From Streptomyces noursei ATCC 11455 (GTDB lineage Bacteria; Actinomycetota; Actinomycetes; Streptomycetales; Streptomycetaceae), in assembly GCF_001704275.1 (NCBI RefSeq), contig NZ_CP011533.1, positions 7,874,001 to 7,938,000 on the forward strand: DNA of 64,000 nucleotides. Reading direction: 5' to 3'. Shown piece by piece: positions 50,682 to 60,117 of the stretch; position 1 is the stretch's first letter, and each line of letters opens with the position of its first letter. The position numbers were made by a program, and so were the translations under genes. Below the pieces are notes generated by a model that worked only from the letters and a program-made list of their open reading frames with translations, ran no database searches and was not told the origin of the DNA.

Positions 50682-52136
50682 TCAGGAGACCAGCTCCACC
50701 GCCCGGCTCCGGCTGCGACGGTGCTGCTCGGCCCAGTTCTCCAGCGCCGCCTGGCAGGCGTGGTCGACATGGCGCAGTCCGCTCAGGTCGAGCTCCACGT
50801 CCCGGTCGGCGGGCAGTGCCTCCAACTGGTCCAGCAGTTTCGGCAGTCGCAGGAAGGTGGCGTTGCCGACCGCCCGGACCCGCACCGGGCCGGGGACGCC
50901 GGGGATGTGGACCTCCAGATGTGCCTGGGAGGTCTCCCACGCGGTCTTGGCCACCGCCAGCAGCAGACCGATCAGCACGCCCTCGAACATGTTCACCGTC
51001 ACGATGGCGAGCGCGGTGACGCACAGCACCACCGCCTCACCGCGGTGCGCCCGCCACAGCGGCCGCAGCTCCCGCAGCGGGATCAGCTTCCAGCCCGCGT
51101 GCACCAGCACACCGGCCAGCGCGGCGATCGGCACCACGCCCAGCGCCGCCGGGAAGGCCGCCGCGAACAGCAGCAGCCACACCCCGTGCAGCACCCGGGA
51201 CGCCTTGGTCCGGGCCCCGGCCTGGACGTTGGCGGCACTGCGCACGATCACCGCCGTCATCGGCAGCGCACCGAGCACCCCGCACAGCGTGTTGCCGGCG
51301 CCCTGGGCCATCAGCTCCCGGTCGTAGTCGGTCCGCGCACCGTCGTGCAGCCGGTCCACCGCCGCCGCGCTGAACAGCGACTCCGCGGACGCGATCAGTG
51401 CGAACGCCAGCACCGTGCCCAGCACGCCGAGCTCGGTCAGTCGGCCGATGTCGGCCAGCCCGGGCGGCTGGATCGCGTCCAGCAACCCGCTCACCTCGAC
51501 CCGGGCGACCGGCAGGTCCAGCACCCAGACCGAGGTGGTGGCCAGCGCGACCGCCGCCAGCGGGGCCGGCAGCACCCGCGCCGCGCGCCGCCACCGCGGC
51601 CACAGCACCAGGACCGCGATGGTGCCCGCCCCGATGGCGAGCGCCGTGAGCCCGGTGCCGGACCGCGCGGTGTCCATCACCAGCCGCGGCAGCGCCCCGA
51701 TGTTGGCCAGGCCGCTGCCCGGCGCCTTGGCGTCCATCAGGGCGTAGAGCTGCCCGGCGATCAGGACCAGTCCGATACCGGCCAGCATGCCCTGCACCAC
51801 GGCGACCGAAATCGCCCGGAACCAGCGCCCCAACTTCAGGGCGCCCATGGCCAGTTGGAGTATGCCGGCGGCCAGGACCAGGGCGCCCAGCGCGCCCAGG
51901 CCGTACTCCTTGACCGCTTCGAAGACCAGCACCGTCAGGCCGGCGGCCGGGCCGCTCACCTGGAGGCTGCTGCCGGGCAGCAGTCCGGTGACCAGCCCGC
52001 CGACGATGCCGGTGACCAGCCCCAGTTCGGCCGGTACGCCGGAGGCCACCGCCACCCCGACACACAGCGGGACGGCGACGAGGAAGACCACGAGGGAGGC
52101 GGTGAAGTCCGCCCGGAGGAAAGGGAATCGCTTCAT
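50682..52136 (-). CDS. SulP-family inorganic anion transporter
   Basis: 484 residues. Ten or more transmembrane helices: start FPFLRADFTASLVVFLVAVP, then VPAELGLVTGIVGGLVTGLL, the SLC26/SulP signature region LQVSGPAAGLTVLV, and ESLFSAAAVDRLHDGART. A reduced STAS domain closes the protein (ADRDVELDLSGLRHVDHACQ). It lies 16 nt after a beta-carbonic anhydrase gene. Linkage of the two is typical of SulP proteins that carry bicarbonate, so bicarbonate uptake is more likely than sulfate. Confidence 0.94.
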   Translation of the reverse strand: MKRFPFLRADFTASLVVFLVAVPLCVGVAVASGVPAELGLVTGIVGGLVTGLLPGSSLQVSGPAAGLTVLVFEAVKEYGLGALGALVLAAGILQLAMGALKLGRWFRAISVAVVQGMLAGIGLVLIAGQLYALMDAKAPGSGLANIGALPRLVMDTARSGTGLTALAIGAGTIAVLVLWPRWRRAARVLPAPLAAVALATTSVWVLDLPVARVEVSGLLDAIQPPGLADIGRLTELGVLGTVLAFALIASAESLFSAAAVDRLHDGARTDYDRELMAQGAGNTLCGVLGALPMTAVIVRSAANVQAGARTKASRVLHGVWLLLFAAAFPAALGVVPIAALAGVLVHAGWKLIPLRELRPLWRAHRGEAVVLCVTALAIVTVNMFEGVLIGLLLAVAKTAWETSQAHLEVHIPGVPGPVRVRAVGNATFLRLPKLLDQLEALPADRDVELDLSGLRHVDHACQAALENWAEQHRRSRSRAVELVS

Positions 52137-52152
52137 CACGTGCAGCTCGCCT

Positions 52153-52755
52153 TCACAGGGGGAGGAACGCGTCGGCGGCCGGCTGGTGCACGGACACCGA
52201 CCCGGTGTGCACCTCGTAGAACCAGCCGTGCAGCCGTACCTCGCCGGCGTCCAGCCGCTCCCGCACACACGGGTAGCCGCCCAGTCGGACCAGCTGTTGG
52301 CACACATGGCGTTGCACGGCCGTGGTGACGGCCGGCCCGTCGTCGCCGGGGAGTTCGTCGGAGAGTTGGAGCGTCAGCCAGTCGCGGACCGACGGTGCGC
52401 CGGTCAGGTCCTCGCCGCGGGCCCGGGCGCCCACCGCGCCGCAATGCGAGTGGCCGCAGACGATGACGTCGGCGACGCGCAGGACCCGCATCGCGTATTC
52501 GATGGTGGCGGCCTCGGAGCTGGCCGCCATGCCTTCCTGGTAGACGGGCACGGCGTTGCCGGCCGTGCGAAGTTCGAAGAGTTCGCCGGGTCGGGCCCCC
52601 GTGATCAGGGACGGGACGACCCGGGAGTCGGAACAGGTGATGAACAGGGCGAGGGGGGACTGGCCGGCCGCCAGCCGGCCGTAGGACTCCTGTTCTTCGC
52701 GCTGCGCGGCTATACGGGCGGTCAGGCCCCGGGCGTGCTGAATGAAGGTCTCCAC
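52153..52755 (-). CDS. Beta-carbonic anhydrase
   Basis: 200 residues from GTG 52755 (AGGAG upstream). Zinc ligands are Cys41 and Asp43 with Arg45 in TCSDSRV, and His/Cys in CGHSHCGAVGA. The FELRTAGNAVP segment and the C-terminal VRLHGWFYEVHTGSV are diagnostic. It interconverts CO2 and bicarbonate in the cytosol. It is co-transcribed with, and upstream of, the SulP transporter, coupling hydration to anion transport. Confidence 0.96.
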   Translation of the reverse strand: METFIQHARGLTARIAAQREEQESYGRLAAGQSPLALFITCSDSRVVPSLITGARPGELFELRTAGNAVPVYQEGMAASSEAATIEYAMRVLRVADVIVCGHSHCGAVGARARGEDLTGAPSVRDWLTLQLSDELPGDDGPAVTTAVQRHVCQQLVRLGGYPCVRERLDAGEVRLHGWFYEVHTGSVSVHQPAADAFLPL

Positions 52756-53513: not shown

Positions 53514-54746
53514 TCAGGAACAACGGGCGCCGCCATCTCCCCGTGCGGCCAGTACGGCCACAGGCACCACGGCCGCCGCGAGCACCCCGCAGACCAGCGC
53601 CAGCACCGGGAATCCGCTCGTGGCCAGCAGCGGTCCGGAGGCCATCCCGCCGGTCGCGCCGGCCAGCGCGATCCCGACGTCCACCAGTCCCTGGGACGCG
53701 GCACGGCGGGCCGGCGGCAGTGCCTCGGTGACCAGCGCGGTACCGCTGACCAGCCCGAAGTTCCAGCCGAGGCCCAGCAGTACCAGCGCCACGGTGAGCC
53801 CGGGCACCGAGTGCGGCGGGGCGAGGGCGGCGAGCAGCCCGGCGGCCAGCAGCGTCACCCCGGACGCCACGGCGACCCGGTGCGGCCCGGCCCGGTCGAC
53901 CCACCGCCCGGTGAGCGGCGACGGCAGGAACATCGCCCCGACGTGCAGCGCGATCACCAGCCCGGCCGTCTCGGTGCCGTGGCCGTGCGCGCGCAGATGC
54001 ACCGGGGTCATGGTCATCAACGCGATCATCACCAGCTGGGTCAGCAGCATCACCGCGGTGCCGGCCGCCAGGCCGCGGCGTCGCCCGGCGGTCGGGCCGG
54101 GGCCCGCGGGGGAGGCCGTCCGGTCGTCCGGCGGGCCGTCCGCGCGCCGTTCGGGCGACGGCGGTTCGGGCCGCAACAGGCAGGCCAGCACGGCCGCCGC
54201 GGCCCCGAACGCGGCGGCGGCCAACAGGAACGGCCCGGCGAGCCGGGGCACGCCCCAGGCCAGCGCCAGATCCCCGGTCACCGTCACCAGATTGGGGCCG
54301 GCCACCGCGCCGAGCGTGGTGGCGAACAGCACGGTGCTCACCGCGCGCCCGCGCCGGTCCGGCGGGGCCAGTTCGGCTCCCGCGTAGCGCGCCATCAGGT
54401 TGGTCGCGGTGCCCGCCCCGTACACCAGCAGGGACGGGAAGAGCAGCAGGGCGCTGTTCAGAGCGGCGGCGGCCACCACCCCCAGACTGCCGAGCACCCC
54501 GGCCCCGTACCCCAGCACGAGCCCGGGGCGGCGCCCCCAGCGCTGGGAGAGCCGGCCGATGGCCACGGCACCCAGCGCCGATCCGGCGGTGAACAGGGCA
54601 CTGGGCACCCCGGCCAGCCCGGTCGAGCCGAGCATGTCCTCGGCGAGCAGTGCACCGACCGTGATCCCGGCCGCCAGGCCCGCCCCGCTGAGCACTTGGG
54701 AGAACACCAGGACGGCCAGTGGCCGGCGCGGCGCGGCACCGTTCAT
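53514..54746 (-). CDS. MFS exporter of the GCIS-peptide operon
   Basis: 410 residues, twelve predicted transmembrane helices split by a hydrophilic loop (about residues 195-225). MFS motif A is GRLSQRWGRRPGLVLGYG between helices 2 and 3; helix 5 region VTGDLALAWGVPRLAGPFLL fits a drug/H+ antiporter (DHA1). ATG 54746 overlaps the stop of the 185-aa gene (ATGA), so it belongs to the leftward operon headed by the repeat peptide and most simply exports its product or gives self-resistance. Confidence 0.92.
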   Translation of the reverse strand: MNGAAPRRPLAVLVFSQVLSGAGLAAGITVGALLAEDMLGSTGLAGVPSALFTAGSALGAVAIGRLSQRWGRRPGLVLGYGAGVLGSLGVVAAAALNSALLLFPSLLVYGAGTATNLMARYAGAELAPPDRRGRAVSTVLFATTLGAVAGPNLVTVTGDLALAWGVPRLAGPFLLAAAAFGAAAAVLACLLRPEPPSPERRADGPPDDRTASPAGPGPTAGRRRGLAAGTAVMLLTQLVMIALMTMTPVHLRAHGHGTETAGLVIALHVGAMFLPSPLTGRWVDRAGPHRVAVASGVTLLAAGLLAALAPPHSVPGLTVALVLLGLGWNFGLVSGTALVTEALPPARRAASQGLVDVGIALAGATGGMASGPLLATSGFPVLALVCGVLAAAVVPVAVLAARGDGGARCS

Positions 54747-55300
54747 GCGGCCGGCGGCTCCAGCGCCGCGATCTCCGTCAGGGACATCCCCATCGTCCGG
54801 TGCAGGAAGCGGACGATGGTCCAGTGCGGCAGCGCGTCCTCGTCGAACGGGCCGAACTCCCGGCAGTACAAAGGGATCCAGCGCAGCGCCTCTTCGAGCG
54901 CCTGGGCCCGCCCCGGCTCCTGCTGGTACGCCTCGTAGCCGATGCTGCGGTGCTCGATGAAGAAGCCTCCCGGGAGCCGTTCCTCGCACAGGGCGCGGTA
55001 CTCGCGGGTCTGCAGGATGAGGTAGTGCCAGATCTCGTCGATGTCCTGCTCGACGGGCAGGAACAGCCCGCCGAGCCGGTCGCGGTGGCGGGAGACGAGG
55101 TAGAGGTAGCGCAGGCACTCGGTGACCTGGCGCGCCACGAACTCCCGTGGGGCGCCGGTCTTCTCCTCGAAGTGCGCGAGGACTTCGGCGTGCAGCGGTG
55201 CGCCGAGCAGGTCCCGCAGGTCCTCCTCGGATATCAACCGGTGCGGGGCGGCCGTGGCGGGTGCGGTGGCCGCGGACGCCGGCGCGGTCCGGTGGGTCAT
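54743..55300 (-). CDS. Unknown protein with GRDP-like N-terminal motif, GCIS-peptide operon
   Basis: 185 residues from ATG 55300, coupled by ATGA overlaps on both sides. An Ala/Thr-rich start is followed by a helical protein with EFVARQVTECLRYLYLVSRH, then DIDEIWHYLILQTREYRALC and PGGFFIEHRSIGYEA. The D-E-x-W-H...T-x-x-Y...C...F-I-x-H pattern resembles the helical domain of glycine-rich-domain (GRDP) proteins of plants and bacteria, whose biochemical role is unknown. The conserved Asp, His and Cys could be catalytic or metal-binding. Operon context suggests a role in processing the peptide. Confidence 0.8.
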   Translation of the reverse strand: MTHRTAPASAATAPATAAPHRLISEEDLRDLLGAPLHAEVLAHFEEKTGAPREFVARQVTECLRYLYLVSRHRDRLGGLFLPVEQDIDEIWHYLILQTREYRALCEERLPGGFFIEHRSIGYEAYQQEPGRAQALEEALRWIPLYCREFGPFDEDALPHWTIVRFLHRTMGMSLTEIAALEPPAA

Positions 55301-56538
55301 GCTTCTCCTCTCGCCAGCCAGGAGTACTTCCCGGACCGGCCGATGGGGATGTGCGGACGGTGGTCGAGCCGGCAGTGCCGGCCGGTGAGTTCGGCGATGC
55401 TCCGCTCCAACGCGGTGGTCTCCGCCGGCCCCAGGGGCGCGCCGTGGAAGGTCGTATACGCCAGCCGGGCCTCGGCGGTGCCCACCAGGCGCAGCTGGTG
55501 GACGAAGATCTGCGCGGTCGCCTCGCCGATGCAGCGGTCCAGGTCGCCCTGGGCGACCGGGCCGTCGTGCGTCCGGAGCAACTCCTTCTGGCGGCCGCAG
55601 AACTGGGCGATCCGCCCCGGGTCGGGGGTGCCGTCGGTGGTGCGTACGCAGTCGCCCGAGCGGTACCGGATCAGCGGCATGTAGGGGTTGCGCACGCTGG
55701 AGACGACGAGGTGGTACAGGGTGCTGTCCGGGGCGACCGGGTGGAGTTCGACGCTCATCTTGTCCAGGTGCGGGCGGTAGTTGCCGCGACGGTCGCTGGA
55801 GTAGAGGTAGCCGAGTTCGGTGCTGCCGAAGAGGTCGATGATCGGGCAGGCGAAGTGCTGGTGCAGGAAGCGCCGCACGTTCACCGGCGTGTACTCGTAG
55901 GCGTGGATGATGCTGGCGGGCGGCGGGAAGTCGTCCCACAGCCCCCATTCGCCGACTTTGCGGACCAGGTGGGCCAGGTGGTAGCCGGAGCAGTCGAGGT
56001 GGTACCAGCCCTCCGGGTGCGCCTCTTGGGCGGTGCGTATCTCGGCGAGCATGCGGACCACGTCGTCGCGGCTCCACAGTGCCGGGTCGAGCCGCAGGTT
56101 CACGTAGCACGTGCGGTCGTCGAGCCGGCGGTCGTCGAGGCCGGGCACGGGGTCGGGCGGGGTGCCGCGCTTGGCGGCGTTGACCCGGGCGACGTGTTCC
56201 GTGGCCAGCACGGTGGTCAGGGAGACGCGGCGGCAGCCGGCTTCCCAGGTCGCGGCGAGGTCGGGGTGTTCGCTCCACAGTTGGTAGTAGGAGCGCAGCA
56301 GGAAGTACGGGGGCCGGATGAGCTGCATCCGGGCGTGGTTGGTGCCGGTGGAGAGCACGAACTCGGCCTCGCCGGACTCCAGCGCGGCGGCCAGCCGGGG
56401 AGTCATCCAGTTGTCGGGGAAGCCGCGGGCGATCTCCGGCTTGTCGAGCACCGGGAAGTGGCCCTTCGCCAGTGACGCGCGGTAGATCGGGATGTCGCGG
56501 ATCTGCTCGATGACCTCGGCGGTCGGCTGGCCTTCCAT
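55297..56538 (-). CDS. PaaK-like adenylate-forming enzyme, GCIS-peptide operon
   Basis: 413 residues from ATG 56538 (GAGGGA upstream). It resembles phenylacetate-CoA ligase/coenzyme F390 synthetase-type adenylating enzymes: FPDNWMTPRLAAALESGEAE, the P-loop-like VLSTGTNHARMQLIRPPYF, the A5 motif IIDLFGSTELGYLYSS, then IRYRSGDCVR (A7) and FCGRQKELLRTHDGPVAQGD. The C-terminal subdomain is short but ends with a Lys in GRSGKYSW. It should activate a carboxylate as acyl-AMP. In this operon the acid could be the peptide's own C-terminus or an acyl group to be attached to it. It lies 121 nt after the peptide gene. Confidence 0.88.
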   Translation of the reverse strand: MEGQPTAEVIEQIRDIPIYRASLAKGHFPVLDKPEIARGFPDNWMTPRLAAALESGEAEFVLSTGTNHARMQLIRPPYFLLRSYYQLWSEHPDLAATWEAGCRRVSLTTVLATEHVARVNAAKRGTPPDPVPGLDDRRLDDRTCYVNLRLDPALWSRDDVVRMLAEIRTAQEAHPEGWYHLDCSGYHLAHLVRKVGEWGLWDDFPPPASIIHAYEYTPVNVRRFLHQHFACPIIDLFGSTELGYLYSSDRRGNYRPHLDKMSVELHPVAPDSTLYHLVVSSVRNPYMPLIRYRSGDCVRTTDGTPDPGRIAQFCGRQKELLRTHDGPVAQGDLDRCIGEATAQIFVHQLRLVGTAEARLAYTTFHGAPLGPAETTALERSIAELTGRHCRLDHRPHIPIGRSGKYSWLARGEA

Positions 56539-56599
56539 GGGGTCCCTCGGGTGTGTGCGCGGGCGGGGAGCCGCCCGGGGCGTGGGGTGCGTGCGCCCA

Positions 56600-56643
56600 C
56601 CGGCGGGCCGGCGGCGGGGGAGTGGCCGCCGCCGGCCCGCCGG
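56600..56643 (-). terminator. Attenuator-like hairpin after the repeat-peptide gene
   Basis: Perfect 18-bp inverted repeat CCGGCGGGCCGGCGGCGG / its complement with an 8-nt loop. It begins 17 nt after the stop of the 54-aa peptide and ends 61 nt before the PaaK-like start. Partial termination here would yield far more peptide mRNA than enzyme mRNA, the usual layout downstream of RiPP precursor genes. Confidence 0.8.
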
Positions 56644-56659
56644 GGCGGTCGGTCCGGCG

Positions 56660-56824
56660 TCAGGAGATACAGCCGCGCTTGGGCGCGGCGCTGATGCAGC
56701 CGGCCTTGGGGGCGGCGCTGATGCAGCCGTTCTTCGCCGTCCGCGGGTCCGACCCGGCGGAGTTGGCGGCCACCCAGCTCTGCCAGACGTCGTCCTGGGC
56801 CATCTTCTTGATGAGCTGCTCCAT
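56660..56824 (-). CDS. Repeat-core precursor peptide (three GCIS units)
   Basis: 54 residues from ATG 56824 with a strong GGAGG 5 nt upstream. The leader-like N-terminus is MEQLIKKMAQDDVWQSWVAA, then NSAGSDPRTAKN. The C-terminus consists of three copies of a 9-residue unit, GCISAAPK + A/R, the last cut to GCIS at the end of the peptide, so Cys34, Cys43 and Cys52 are evenly spaced. Regular Cys/Ser-bearing core repeats after an acidic/helical leader are characteristic of multi-core RiPP precursors. Three modification/export genes follow in a coupled operon. I recognise no described family with this core. Confidence 0.85.
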   Translation of the reverse strand: MEQLIKKMAQDDVWQSWVAANSAGSDPRTAKNGCISAAPKAGCISAAPKRGCIS

Positions 56825-56903
56825 GGGGACCTCCAAAGGTGTGGAAAGGGGGGGACGGCATCCGGCGGTGCGGTGATGACCTGCGCCGATGCCGACGTCA
56901 ATG

Positions 56904-56933
56904 AAGGTAAAAGGATCGCCAAGTGAATGTCAA
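56904..56933 (-). promoter_or_regulatory. Consensus promoter of the repeat-peptide operon
   Basis: Minus strand: perfect -35 TTGACA (56928-56933), 17-bp spacer, -10 TTACCT (56905-56910; TACCTT at 18 bp is an alternative). The predicted transcript starts near 56898, about 75 nt before the peptide ATG. Such a good consensus is rare in this GC-rich DNA. The rest of the 380-bp region (56825-57204) up to the divergent HypX-like gene shows no other feature. Confidence 0.7.
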
Positions 56934-57204
56934 CGATAGGCAATGTCGGGCTGCCCGGAAGGCGTTTCGGCGCGCCAACTTTGGCGGGATCCCGCCGCGG
57001 TGGCCGACGGCGGAACTATCTGATGTGCAGTCACCTCGCCGAGGGAGGCGGCACGGTGCGAGGGGCCGCCCGGCGGGCGGGACCGCGGCGACGGGGCCCG
57101 GGCCCGATGCGTTCGGGTGACCTCCTCGGCGGGACCGTCGCCGGCCCGTCGCGCGCGGGAACGATCACGATCGTCCACCGTCCAGCCACCCCAGGGAGCC
57201 CGCT

Positions 57205-58941
57205 GTGCGCATCCTGCTCCTCGCCGACGCCTTCAACAGTCTGACGCAGCGCGCCTACGCCGAACTCGCCGACCGCGGCCACCACCTCGGCGTCGAACTG
57301 GTCACCCGCGCCACACCACTGGCCGCGCTGGTGCCCCGGCACGCCCCCGACCTGATCGTCGCGCCGATGCTCACCACGGTCGTCCCCCGCGAGGTCTGGT
57401 CCACCTGGCCCTGCCTGATCGTGCACCCCGGGCCGCTCGGCGACCGCGGCCCGTCCTCGGTGGACTGGGCCGTCCAACAGGGCGCGGAGCGATGGGGCGT
57501 CACCGTCCTCCAGGCCGACGACGAGATGGACGGCGGCGACATCTGGGCGACGGCCGACTGCCCGGTCCCGGATGTCGGCAAGAGCGACCTGTACCGCAAC
57601 GAGATCGCCGACGCGGCGATCGAGGCGCTGCTGACCGCCGTCGCCCGCTTCGCCGTCGGCACCCACCGCCCGGAACCGCAGCGCACCCTCCCCGCGGACC
57701 GGCTCCTCGGCCGCCCCCGGCCGCGACTCCGCCAGGAGGACCGCCGCATCGACTGGGCCACGGACCCCACCGAGACCGTGCTGCGCACCCTCCGGGCCGC
57801 CGACTCCCGCCCCGGCGTCCGGGACGAACTCCTCGGCGGGACCTGGTTCCTGCACGGCGGCCACCCCGAGGACACCCTCACCGGGCGCCCCGGCGCACTG
57901 CTCGCCACCCGCAACGGCGCGGTCTGCCGGGCCACCGCCGACGGCGCGGTGTGGATCCCCGAACTCCGCCCGGCCCGCACCCCGGGCGGACCCGCTGCCG
58001 TCAAGCTGCCCGCCACCCTGGCGCTCGGCGACCGCCTCCCGCCGCTACCCGAGATCCCCGCCCCCCTGGAGGCGGCCGACGGCGCCCCGCGCACCTGGAG
58101 CGACATCCGCTACCACGAGGACGGACCGGCCGGATTCCTACGGTTCTCCTTCCCCGGCGGCGCGATGAGCACCGACCACTGCCGGCGACTGCTGGCCGCC
58201 TACCGCCACGCCTGCACCCGGCCCACCTCCGTCCTGGTCCTGGGCGGGCAGCGGGACTTCTTCTCCAACGGCATCCACCTCAACGTCATCGAGGCCGCCG
58301 CCGACCCCGCCGCGGAATCCTGGGCCAACATCAACGCCATCGACGACCTCGTCGAGGCCGTGCTGACCACCACCGACCGGCTGGTGGTCGCCGCCCTCGG
58401 CGGCAACGCGGCGGCCGGCGGCGCGATGCTGGCGCTCGCCGCCGACGAGGTCTGGTGCCGCTTCGCCGCCGTCCTCAACCCCCACTACCGGCTGATGGGG
58501 CTCCACGGCTCGGAATACTGGACGTACACCCTGCCGCGCAGGGTCGGCCCGGAAACCGCCGCGCACATGAGGGACCGTGCCCTGCCGATCACCGCGGCGC
58601 ACGGCCAGCGGCTCGGCCTGGTCGACCGGATCGTCGACTGCACCGCGCAGGAATTCGGCGACCACACCGGACGGCTCGCCCGCCGGCTCGCCGATTCCCC
58701 CGGCGTCCAGTCCCGGATCGCCGCCAAGAAGGCCCGCCGGGAGAGCGACGAGGCGCGGCGCCCGCTCGCCGCCCATCGCGACGACGAACTGGCCCGAATG
58801 CGGCGCACCTTCTTCGACCCGGACGCCCCCTATCACGCCCTGCGCCGCGCCTTCGTCCGCAAGGAAGGCCCCTGCGGCACCCCGGCACATCTGAACGCCG
58901 GTGCCCCGGGGGCGAGCGCGATGCCGGGAGCCCATGACTGA
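57205..58941 (+). CDS. hypX: HypX/HoxX-like protein (formyltransferase plus enoyl-CoA hydratase domains)
   Basis: 578 residues from GTG 57205 (AGGGAG upstream). Residues 1-270 are a formyl-tetrahydrofolate-binding transferase domain (ILLLADAFNSLTQRAYAEL, HPGPLGDRGPSSVDWAV, then DGGDIWATADC). Residues 290-540 are a crotonase domain with SVLVLGGQRDFFSNGIHLN and the oxyanion loop VVAALGGNAAAGGAMLALAAD. HypX makes CO from formyl-THF by way of formyl-CoA, for [NiFe]-hydrogenase assembly. No hydrogenase or other hyp gene is in the window; it lies divergent from the repeat-peptide operon. The length matches characterised HypX. Confidence 0.93.
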   Translation: MRILLLADAFNSLTQRAYAELADRGHHLGVELVTRATPLAALVPRHAPDLIVAPMLTTVVPREVWSTWPCLIVHPGPLGDRGPSSVDWAVQQGAERWGVTVLQADDEMDGGDIWATADCPVPDVGKSDLYRNEIADAAIEALLTAVARFAVGTHRPEPQRTLPADRLLGRPRPRLRQEDRRIDWATDPTETVLRTLRAADSRPGVRDELLGGTWFLHGGHPEDTLTGRPGALLATRNGAVCRATADGAVWIPELRPARTPGGPAAVKLPATLALGDRLPPLPEIPAPLEAADGAPRTWSDIRYHEDGPAGFLRFSFPGGAMSTDHCRRLLAAYRHACTRPTSVLVLGGQRDFFSNGIHLNVIEAAADPAAESWANINAIDDLVEAVLTTTDRLVVAALGGNAAAGGAMLALAADEVWCRFAAVLNPHYRLMGLHGSEYWTYTLPRRVGPETAAHMRDRALPITAAHGQRLGLVDRIVDCTAQEFGDHTGRLARRLADSPGVQSRIAAKKARRESDEARRPLAAHRDDELARMRRTFFDPDAPYHALRRAFVRKEGPCGTPAHLNAGAPGASAMPGAHD

Positions 58942-59027: not shown

Positions 59028-59576
59028 TCACGGCGTCGGCAGGTACTTGTAGCCGATGCCGAAGACGGTGGTGATCAGCTTGCGCCGCCCCGGGCCCAGC
59101 CGCCGGCGCAGCCGGGCGATGTGCACGTCCACCGTGCGGTCGCTGGACCGGCAGTCCGGCCAGACCGCGGCCATCAGCTGCTGCCGGGTGAAGGCCCGCC
59201 GCGGGTGCAGCACCAGGTGGGCCAGCAGGTCGAACTCCAGCCGGGGGATGTCGATCTGACGGCCGTCGATGGAGACGGTGCGTGCCGCGGTGTCGATCTG
59301 GATCGGGTCGGGCGCGAACTCGCCGGCCGACGGCTGCGCACCGGCGACCGGTGCGGTCGGTCCGGCGCACGGCGGGGCGAGGATGATGTGCAGCTTGTCC
59401 GAGGTCAGTCGGTGAACCGACACGGGTTCCAAATCGTGCAAGGTGAGTTGCCACTTGCCGTCGGGGAGCCGGTCGACCGCCAAGGGTGGCCCTCCGCCGG
59501 GGCCGGCCTTTGCCGGCCGGCCGAAATCGGCATCCGGTCGCAACGCAAGGGGGGTCGTCGACGCGTTCATAAACAT
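59028..59576 (-). CDS. Orphan OmpR/PhoB-type winged-helix regulator without receiver domain
   Basis: About 182 residues from ATG 59576 (an ATG at 59570 is also possible; GAGGAA is 13 nt upstream). The C-terminal ~95 residues are a Trans_reg_C domain: IDTAARTVSIDGRQIDIPRL, FDLLAHLVLHPRRAFTRQQL, RTVDVHIARLRRRLG and ITTVFGIGYKYLP. The N-terminal ~85 residues are not a phospho-receiver; they contain LHDLEPVSVHRLTSDKLHII and no Asp pocket. A possible regulator of the neighbouring peptide operon or hypX-like gene; its input signal is unknown. Confidence 0.88.
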   Translation of the reverse strand: MFMNASTTPLALRPDADFGRPAKAGPGGGPPLAVDRLPDGKWQLTLHDLEPVSVHRLTSDKLHIILAPPCAGPTAPVAGAQPSAGEFAPDPIQIDTAARTVSIDGRQIDIPRLEFDLLAHLVLHPRRAFTRQQLMAAVWPDCRSSDRTVDVHIARLRRRLGPGRRKLITTVFGIGYKYLPTP

Positions 59577-60117
59577 GATCTGGGCCCATTCCTCTTGCAA
59601 AGCAGGCGTGTTCGGACAGACATGGCGGTGCTCGGCGTGCGGCGTGCGGTACCGCTGTGCCGCGAACGCTGTGCAGCCCGGTGAGAGGCCGGGCCGGTAC
59701 ACCGACACTCGTGATGCGGGTGCGCCCAACGGGCCGAACACCCTCCCGTCCCTGTTGGGGAGAGCGCTCGCGCCCGTGCCCGTACTCGGCCATGACGTGA
59801 ACAACCGTCACGTCACCGGTCCGAACGAACGCTACATGTGATCGCGCGCTTCCGGATAGTAGCTTCCGCTAATTACGGTTGCTCTTGAGCCGATTTCATG
59901 TTTGGCGGCCTTCGGGCCGGTCGGCGGTCCGTAGGGACGGGTCGTCGACCTCCTGGGAATCGTTTCCCTGTCCGGCGATTCCCTTATGCATTCCTTATGA
60001 AGCCTTCTGCCGTCGGTGCCGGTGCCGGTGCCGGTGTCGGCGCCGATGCCGATGCCGGGTGCGGTGTCGCCGTACCGCGTCGAGAAGAGTAAGGGTTCTG
60101 CCGAATAAGGGCATTAC
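59577..60117. other. Intergenic region upstream of the orphan regulator
   Basis: 541 bases. The part near 59836-59880 is AT-rich (ATAGTAGCTTCCGCTAATTACG), possibly promoter DNA. From 60015 to 60056 lie seven tandem hexamers related to GGTGCC. No supported gene; rightward frames through it give only Arg/Gly/Ala-rich translation. Confidence 0.5.
60015..60056. repeat. Tandem hexanucleotide repeat
   Basis: Seven consecutive 6-bp units: GGTGCC three times, then GGTGTC, GGCGCC and GATGCC twice. It is non-coding by my reading and lies just before the MFS pseudogene. Likely a slippage-prone minisatellite. Confidence 0.8.

Follow-up and report, generated by a model that had tools for sequence, protein, structure and literature searches.

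The window analysed here is the whole stretch of 64,000 nucleotides (nt) taken from Streptomyces noursei ATCC 11455 (NZ_CP011533.1, positions 7,874,001 to 7,938,000), and lies in a 9.8-Mb single-contig genome. On its minus strand it carries a gene for a 54-amino-acid (aa) peptide with three repeated units, followed by genes for an adenylate-forming ligase of the PaaK fold (an ANL enzyme), for a 185-aa helical protein and for a transporter of the major facilitator superfamily (MFS), and the whole is very probably a peptide-modifying operon. The operon, the co-inheritance of its genes, the repeated unit, and the predicted fold and most active-site motifs of the ligase are directly supported; the operon itself is well supported, and its chemistry is what we infer. 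We put at about even the chances that this is an operon like those of ribosomally synthesized and post-translationally modified peptides (RiPPs) whose ligase modifies every unit by acylation of its Cys, Ser or Lys, in the manner proposed below. That it represents a new RiPP class, in which a PaaK-fold ligase acylates every K-x-G-C-(I/V)-S unit, or cyclises it together with the 185-aa protein, is a tentative proposal, held with slightly less than even confidence.

Co-inheritance of peptide, ligase and 185-aa protein

Across 392 genomes of the genus of the window, the ligase (E value 1e-10 or better) and the 185-aa protein (1.1e-62 or better) were each found in 49, the two sets being identical, so that about one in eight of the genomes sampled (49/392) holds the operon. 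The peptide (8.3e-16 or better) was also found in 49 genomes, of which one belongs to the 343 others (G081, where the contig, in a 700-contig assembly, ends 30 nt past the match) and the rest are ligase-bearing. The first-pass annotation had suggested that co-occurrence of the peptide with the PaaK-like ligase and the 185-aa gene be looked at, homologues of the two genes that never stand beside a repeat peptide speaking against a link: the peptide is present in 48 of the 49 ligase-bearing genomes, so that this objection falls away, although the formal significance of the association is overstated by the shared ancestry of the genomes. Peptide and ligase lie on the same contig, 84–375 nt apart, in 48 of 48 cases, and the ligase adjoins the 185-aa gene in 48 of 49, the two genes being split between contigs in the exception, G017, whose assembly has 1140 contigs. 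Seven further genomes with partial peptide matches (E 6.7e-4 to 0.00875) were not counted, nor were weak matches to the 185-aa protein (8.4e-7 to 9.3e-4) taken as orthologues; these are distant kin, and 80 of the 392 genomes have a match of any kind.

The single ligase-positive genome without the peptide, G303, retains a ligase match to residues 309–410 only and a 185-aa gene split over two frames. With a ligase remnant, a split partner gene and no peptide found, its operon appears to be decaying, and joint decay is expected if all the genes belong to one pathway. At the same locus (L113), the MFS match covers residues 7–259 only.

A public genome collection yielded 42 loci, from 40 Streptomyces, one Kitasatospora and Sinosporangium album, and all three genes were detected in order by tblastn in the first 41. 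Among 394 genomes across the class, the sole strong ligase outside the genus occurs in G620, the others being at 1e-9 or weaker. It belongs to a second family, whose ligase was found in 4 of 120 genomes, from four genera, with the 185-aa gene adjoining and a peptide of two units before it in all four, and the presence of the trio there lends further support to co-inheritance.

In the window, the peptide gene comes first, followed by a gap of 121 nt and then by the ligase, 185-aa and MFS genes, which are coupled by two ATGA overlaps, all on the minus strand:

56905–56933, minus strand: promoter-like element, TTGACA (56933–56928), 17-nt spacer, TTACCT (56910–56905); from sequence, with a similar pattern in 38 of 41 related loci
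56830–56834, minus strand: ribosome-binding site GGAGG; from sequence, with a similar box before the ATG in related loci, judged by eye
56660–56824, minus strand: precursor-like peptide gene, 54 aa and stop codon; from homologues, low pN/pS in relatives and co-occurrence
56735–56824, minus strand: leader-like part, residues 1–30; from alignment and per-position counts
56717–56734, minus strand: unit 1, KNGCIS, residues 31–36; from sequence and unit statistics
56690–56707, minus strand: unit 2, KAGCIS, residues 40–45; from sequence and unit statistics
56663–56680, minus strand: unit 3, KRGCIS, residues 49–54, with the stop codon directly after; from sequence and unit statistics
56586–56655, minus strand: strong RNA hairpin in the peptide–ligase gap; from the fold of 56560–56665
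55297–56538, minus strand: PaaK-fold adenylate-forming ligase, 413 aa
54743–55300, minus strand: 185-aa helical protein resembling GRDP-like proteins, with invariant DEIWH and other polar residues; from alignment and model
53514–54746, minus strand: MFS transporter, 410 aa, candidate accessory exporter; from Pfam MFS_1 (E 1.3e-31) and tblastn in related loci

The peptide and its repeated unit

The peptide, MEQLIKKMAQDDVWQSWVAANSAGSDPRTAKNGCISAAPKAGCISAAPKRGCIS (54 aa, window positions 56824–56660, minus strand), has 56 homologues in the protein database, and all those with an organism in their name are from Streptomyces. In a sample of 25 peptides of 51 residues, drawn from 42 considered and not including the 54-aa peptide of the window, the proportions of synonymous (pS) and nonsynonymous (pN) differences are 0.377 and 0.128; the core has a pS of 0.404 and a pN of 0.092, and the leader-like part a pN of 0.156. 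Selection is purifying, and stronger in the core than in the leader-like part; with this ratio and its 56 homologues, the peptide gene is not due to chance. The two parts can be told apart by the conservation of the N-terminal one, which is predicted to act as a leader, and by the repeated units of the other, which are joined by drifting spacers. Alignment and per-position counts reveal L-I-x-K-M, W-x-x-W and N-S as conserved in the leader-like part throughout the genus.

The repeat had previously been read as a nine-residue unit, GCISAAPK-x, in three evenly spaced copies, the last ending at GCIS. In the window, three GCIS units indeed occur at a spacing of nine residues, with the stop codon directly behind the last, but in relatives this spacing is the commonest and not an invariant one (9 in 187 cases, 8 in 20, 7 in 3, 12 in 3 and 15 in 1). 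The second family replaces the AAP spacer (by RA, LP, RA and K) and keeps the unit, and for this reason the repeat is redefined as K-x-G-C-(I/V)-S, in two to four copies with variable spacers, AAP being one of the latter. All eight units of the four second-family peptides, which end in KDGCISRAKTGCISR, KDGCISLPKQGCIS, KDGCISRAKDGCVS and KDGCISKKQGCISKG, fit this definition.

Altogether, 322 units were recorded in 108 distinct peptides (those of 57 alignment rows and 64 loci, with three of the four second-family peptides outside), by means of the pattern (G/E)(C/Y)(I/V)(S/C/N), which misses diverged units and by construction favours the counts of Gly (321), Cys (320), Ser (319) and, after Gly-Cys, Ile (303) or Val (19). 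The first two positions of the unit lie outside this pattern; the second is free and the first is Lys in 319 units, a count that consequently carries weight. Visible diverged endings missed by the pattern are GCIF, GRAS and GRIS; a further two peptides have tails of unrelated sequence, probably through a frameshift or a miscall. Three units are found in 92 of the 108 peptides, two in 9 and four in 7, so that the repeat number does vary, as an earlier suggestion to compare strains had anticipated: the peptide of S. noursei A-2-1 has two units against three in the window, where the ligase is 98.8% identical to that of the same strain. The peptide ends exactly at a unit in 101 of the 108, and extra residues follow the last unit in three peptides (KG in G620, R in G781 and R in G181).

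Several profile matches of the peptide were set aside. The Pfam family Ldi (linalool dehydratase) matches 53 of 57 members (best E 0.00016) and was rejected as a chance likeness of one helix, the peptide of the window scoring 18.3, below the curated cut-off of 26.1, over 25 residues. Matches to the NCBIfam "NHLP-related RiPP peptide" (2 of 57 peptides, best E 0.033) and to the chaperone SicP (27 of 57, best E 0.00097) were not used.

The ligase and the 185-aa protein

The ligase has no Pfam match. Its nearest profile match among solved structures is ClxA (E 6.7e-7), its nearest solved relatives also include NatL2, and most of its model can be superposed on ANL enzymes, indicating that a PaaK-like fold is present. 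In an alignment of 40 rows (the window and 39 of the 92 ligases collected, after dropping L026, with an in-frame stop, and L113, a remnant), FGS-x-EL, Y-x-x-G-D, GR-x-x-EL and a C-terminal SGK (K404) are kept, with Arg at the second place of Y-x-x-G-D in 90% or more of the rows; we take these to be adenylation motifs and the C-terminal catalytic lysine. Profile, structural alignment and the retention of most adenylation motifs thus agree with the assignment of a PaaK-like ligase made at first pass. Matches to Hax3 and ETV6 in the solved-structure searches are short chance stretches. ANL enzymes activate a carboxylate by adenylation, the acceptor then being a thiol, an amine or a hydroxyl, and for PaaK usually a thiol. 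ClxA is reported to form amides and esters directly (PMC12519233), and NatL2 to form an ester by adenylation and to be partnered with a second, zinc-dependent cyclising enzyme (PMC7204872).

The 185-aa protein, initially described as unknown, is not an orphan, and resembles GRDP-like (glycine-rich domain-containing protein-like) proteins in a motif, tentatively in its predicted fold, and in the names that sources give to a few close homologues. A D-x-x-W-H motif, a T-x-x-Y motif and a following His are common to it and to distant Streptomyces proteins, and Asp, His and Cys residues are invariant in an alignment of 40 rows (the window and 39 of the 120 homologues listed out of 354 found). The model of the protein is helical, and Foldseek relates it to a GRDP-like model of Harvfovirus with a probability of 1.00 and a template-modelling score of 0.62 by target, but at an E value of 0.024. 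A few close homologues are labelled glycine-rich domain-containing by their source, and homologues carry PF27765 in the protein database. For the protein itself Pfam gives no family match at an E value of 0.1 or below and, as it has no match to a curated family, it is termed "resembling" rather than a member. Distant kin are encoded in other genomes of the genus (L119–L126), and several of them end in Cys/Gly-rich tails, such as CNEPTCCGDGPCC, that might themselves be modified.

Proposed mechanism and alternatives

The scheme that we infer, from the choice of acid and of the atom receiving it, through the part played by the 185-aa protein, to cleavage and export, is as follows. The conserved N-terminal part of the peptide (residues 1–30) would serve recognition, and the ligase would adenylate a carboxylic acid, probably a common cellular one, since no acid-making gene is seen conserved with the trio. 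The acid would be passed, without coenzyme A (CoA), to each unit, where the likeliest nucleophile would be the Cys thiol, given the usual acceptor of PaaK, followed by the Ser hydroxyl or the Lys amine; an acyl group on Cys could possibly be moved onward to either of these. Next would come the 185-aa protein, rearranging, cyclising or oxidising the acylated unit, a step that may be likened to that of the zinc enzyme acting after NatL2, or else it would present the peptide for the ligase to act on. The units would be freed by a general protease and the MFS pump, where present, would export the product, probably a modified-peptide natural product with a chemistry new to ribosomal peptides. The peptide is more likely to be the acceptor than the acid, because a free carboxylate is missing from the internal units, and the cores of 41 peptides share no conserved acidic position.

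A number of observations weigh against this scheme. No product, modified mass or activity is on record for the operon, and no leader-binding domain (RiPP recognition element) is recognised by Pfam or NCBIfam in its proteins. The P-loop region of the ligase reads STGT-(N/D/H)-H, the usual form in such ligases being TTG, and this alteration makes its use of ATP less certain; its identity to ClxA is 14–16% by structural alignment, a likeness so low that its independence of CoA is a property borrowed from ClxA. We know of no established activity for GRDP-like proteins. No peptidase or acid-supplying gene was recognised among the neighbour clusters common to at least 14 of the 42 loci (open reading frames of at least 90 codons, with representatives of nine clusters scanned). 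Tyr replaces Cys in 2 of the 322 units, an example being the middle unit of the L033 peptide, and Asp or Glu is present in the core of 23 of the 41 peptides, so that a peptide serving as the acid is compatible with composition. The ligase frame is broken in 2 of the 41 loci with the trio, L013 (8290–9435; lost near residue 350) and L026 (8287–9525; stop at codon 44), whose operons are otherwise complete, the break being due either to sequencing error or to decay. Lastly, Sinosporangium album (Streptosporangiaceae) indicates that the ligase can stay intact where the 185-aa gene is missing: its ligase (L042:8001–9384; 67%) is intact, no 185-aa gene was found in the 16 kb covered, and its peptide gene has a frameshift past residue 17, a single unit being discernible in a different frame. 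There the ligase may have been retained for another use.

Could the peptide instead be a ribosomal acyl carrier? Its Cys would then replace the CoA thiol, the ligase would load a thioester, the 185-aa protein would convert it, and a small molecule would be released, as in pathways using peptide amino-acyl tRNA ligases (PEARLs). The thiol normally loaded by PaaK enzymes, a unit far better kept than its spacers, the 101 of 108 distinct peptides that end at a unit, and the lack of a recognised peptidase among the shared neighbour clusters are all consistent with such a carrier, which we nevertheless consider unlikely, as no releasing enzyme is evident and the near-constant Lys would be needless for a pure thiol carrier.

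The first-pass annotation had the adenylate-forming enzyme activate a carboxylate, either that of the peptide C-terminus or that of an added acid. The PaaK fold sustains the activation of a carboxylate, and the prevalence of peptides ending exactly at the last unit would suit the C-terminus. Only the last unit has a C-terminus, however, internal units offering no free carboxylate unless the peptide is cut first, and the residues added in G620, G781 and G181 would displace it. This makes activation of the C-terminus less favoured than that of an added acid, and distinctly improbable as an account of the operon.

Little credence is given to a reading in which the ligase and the 185-aa protein jointly form a heterocycle at Gly-Cys or link Cys to Ser, an ANL enzyme thus standing in for a YcaO cyclodehydratase: ANL enzymes activate carboxylates and not backbone amides, and no metal site is evident in the 185-aa protein. 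It owes its interest to the invariant Asp, His and Cys of that protein, to the closest solved relatives by profile, which include ligases of benzoxazole pathways, and to NatL2, which is reported to work with a zinc-dependent cyclising enzyme (PMC7204872), the two giving benzoxazoles. Equally doubtful is a peptide that is no substrate at all, being metal-binding, regulatory or self-acting and merely co-transcribed with a small-molecule pathway, as might be imagined for a small Cys-bearing peptide whose modification is only predicted: repeat number and spacers drift while the six-residue unit is kept in two families beside the same two enzymes, and one Cys per unit together with odd unit numbers speaks against a fixed metal site or disulfides.

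Expression signals, transporter and neighbouring genes

Two features of the non-coding sequence count for a RiPP-like operon, namely a conserved promoter-like element and a conserved hairpin. What had been called a consensus promoter is so in its first box, a perfect TTGACA; the second, TTACCT, departs from consensus, and a strict sigma-70 scan of this stretch of the window found nothing. The pattern TTGAC(A/G)-N14-20-T(T/A)TA(A/C) nevertheless precedes the peptide gene in 38 of the 41 related loci, against 0 of 2050 base shuffles of the same stretches, with a TTGACA-type element and a T-rich second box 65–112 nt ahead of the start codon. The ribosome-binding site was correctly called, GGAGG (56834–56830) standing ahead of the ATG at 56824, as was the hairpin 3' of the peptide stop, which has a folding energy of −71.4 kcal/mol and a z score of −4.8; the 75 nt after the stop have a z score below −2 in 31 of the 41 related loci and lack such a fold in 10.

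The MFS exporter, previously counted as part of the operon, is recognised in the window by its Pfam match. It was matched by tblastn in 35 of the 42 loci, in part only in some of them, and in none of the four second-family loci, and is therefore regarded as accessory; another MFS-like protein is seen by eye in G801, of the second family. In eight griseus-like loci, a DUF6643 gene lies 3' of the operon (for example, L026:10438–11019), and no MFS orthologue was found in four of these eight. One widely shared neighbour cluster (30 loci), for which Pfam gives no match, looks like a reading of the wrong frame.

Downstream in the window lie genes for a beta-carbonic anhydrase (52153–52755, minus strand) and a SulP-type transporter (50682–52307, minus strand). 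A carbonic anhydrase match occurs near the peptide in 31 of the 42 loci, in at least three arrangements, and none was found in the four second-family loci. The cause may be synteny or a link to bicarbonate supply. Divergent from the operon is a gene (57205–58941, plus strand) for a protein with a formyltransferase and an enoyl-CoA hydratase domain, presumably the architecture of HypX, and found in only 10 of the 42 loci. Another gene (59028–59804, minus strand), whose product binds DNA, by prediction, through a C-terminus of the OmpR type and is unrecognised in its N-terminal part, adjoins the operon in the noursei/lydicus group.

Comparison with known systems

No LanB/C, YcaO, radical SAM, ATP-grasp or lasso enzyme is found by Pfam, or named by NCBIfam, among the operon proteins, which upholds what had been said at first pass of lanthipeptide, YcaO, radical SAM and lasso enzymes. 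The operon fits the wide definition of RiPPs and is assigned to none of their classes, since no class-defining enzyme is recognised and no product is known. No description of it was found in the portion of the literature searched, most subscription journals lying outside that scope. If the new class proposed above is real, we know of no earlier ANL enzyme that acts in trans on the core of a ribosomal peptide, nor of an enzymatic role previously assigned to a GRDP-like protein. Should the ligase act on the peptide, the PaaK branch of adenylate-forming enzymes would join the RiPP toolkit, a six-residue acylation tag would be at hand in two to four natural copies, and a first possible activity would be suggested for GRDP-like proteins, which are also present in plants and giant viruses.

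With RiPP operons in general, such as those of graspetides and cyanobactins, this operon shares a small precursor, a leader-like part, repeated units, a hairpin after the precursor gene, and modifying enzymes and an exporter in one operon, but the place of the class-defining enzyme is taken by an ANL ligase of the PaaK fold and a GRDP-resembling protein. The ligase is 14–17% identical to ClxA (closoxazole), NatL2 (nataxazole) and AjiA1, from which it differs by its altered P-loop and by its genetic tie to a ribosomal peptide. In the PEARL/pearlin pathways, too, a ribosomal peptide serves as a scaffold through its C-terminal region, with one growing end where the present peptide has repeats; no LanB-like peptide amino-acyl tRNA ligase was found among the four operon proteins, the wider genome not having been searched. 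Finally, the 185-aa protein has the D-x-x-W-H motif in common with distant Streptomyces proteins and may have the fold of GRDP-like proteins; it is devoid of the glycine/cysteine-rich tail of those distant proteins, and stands beside the ligase and the peptide in the genomes sampled.

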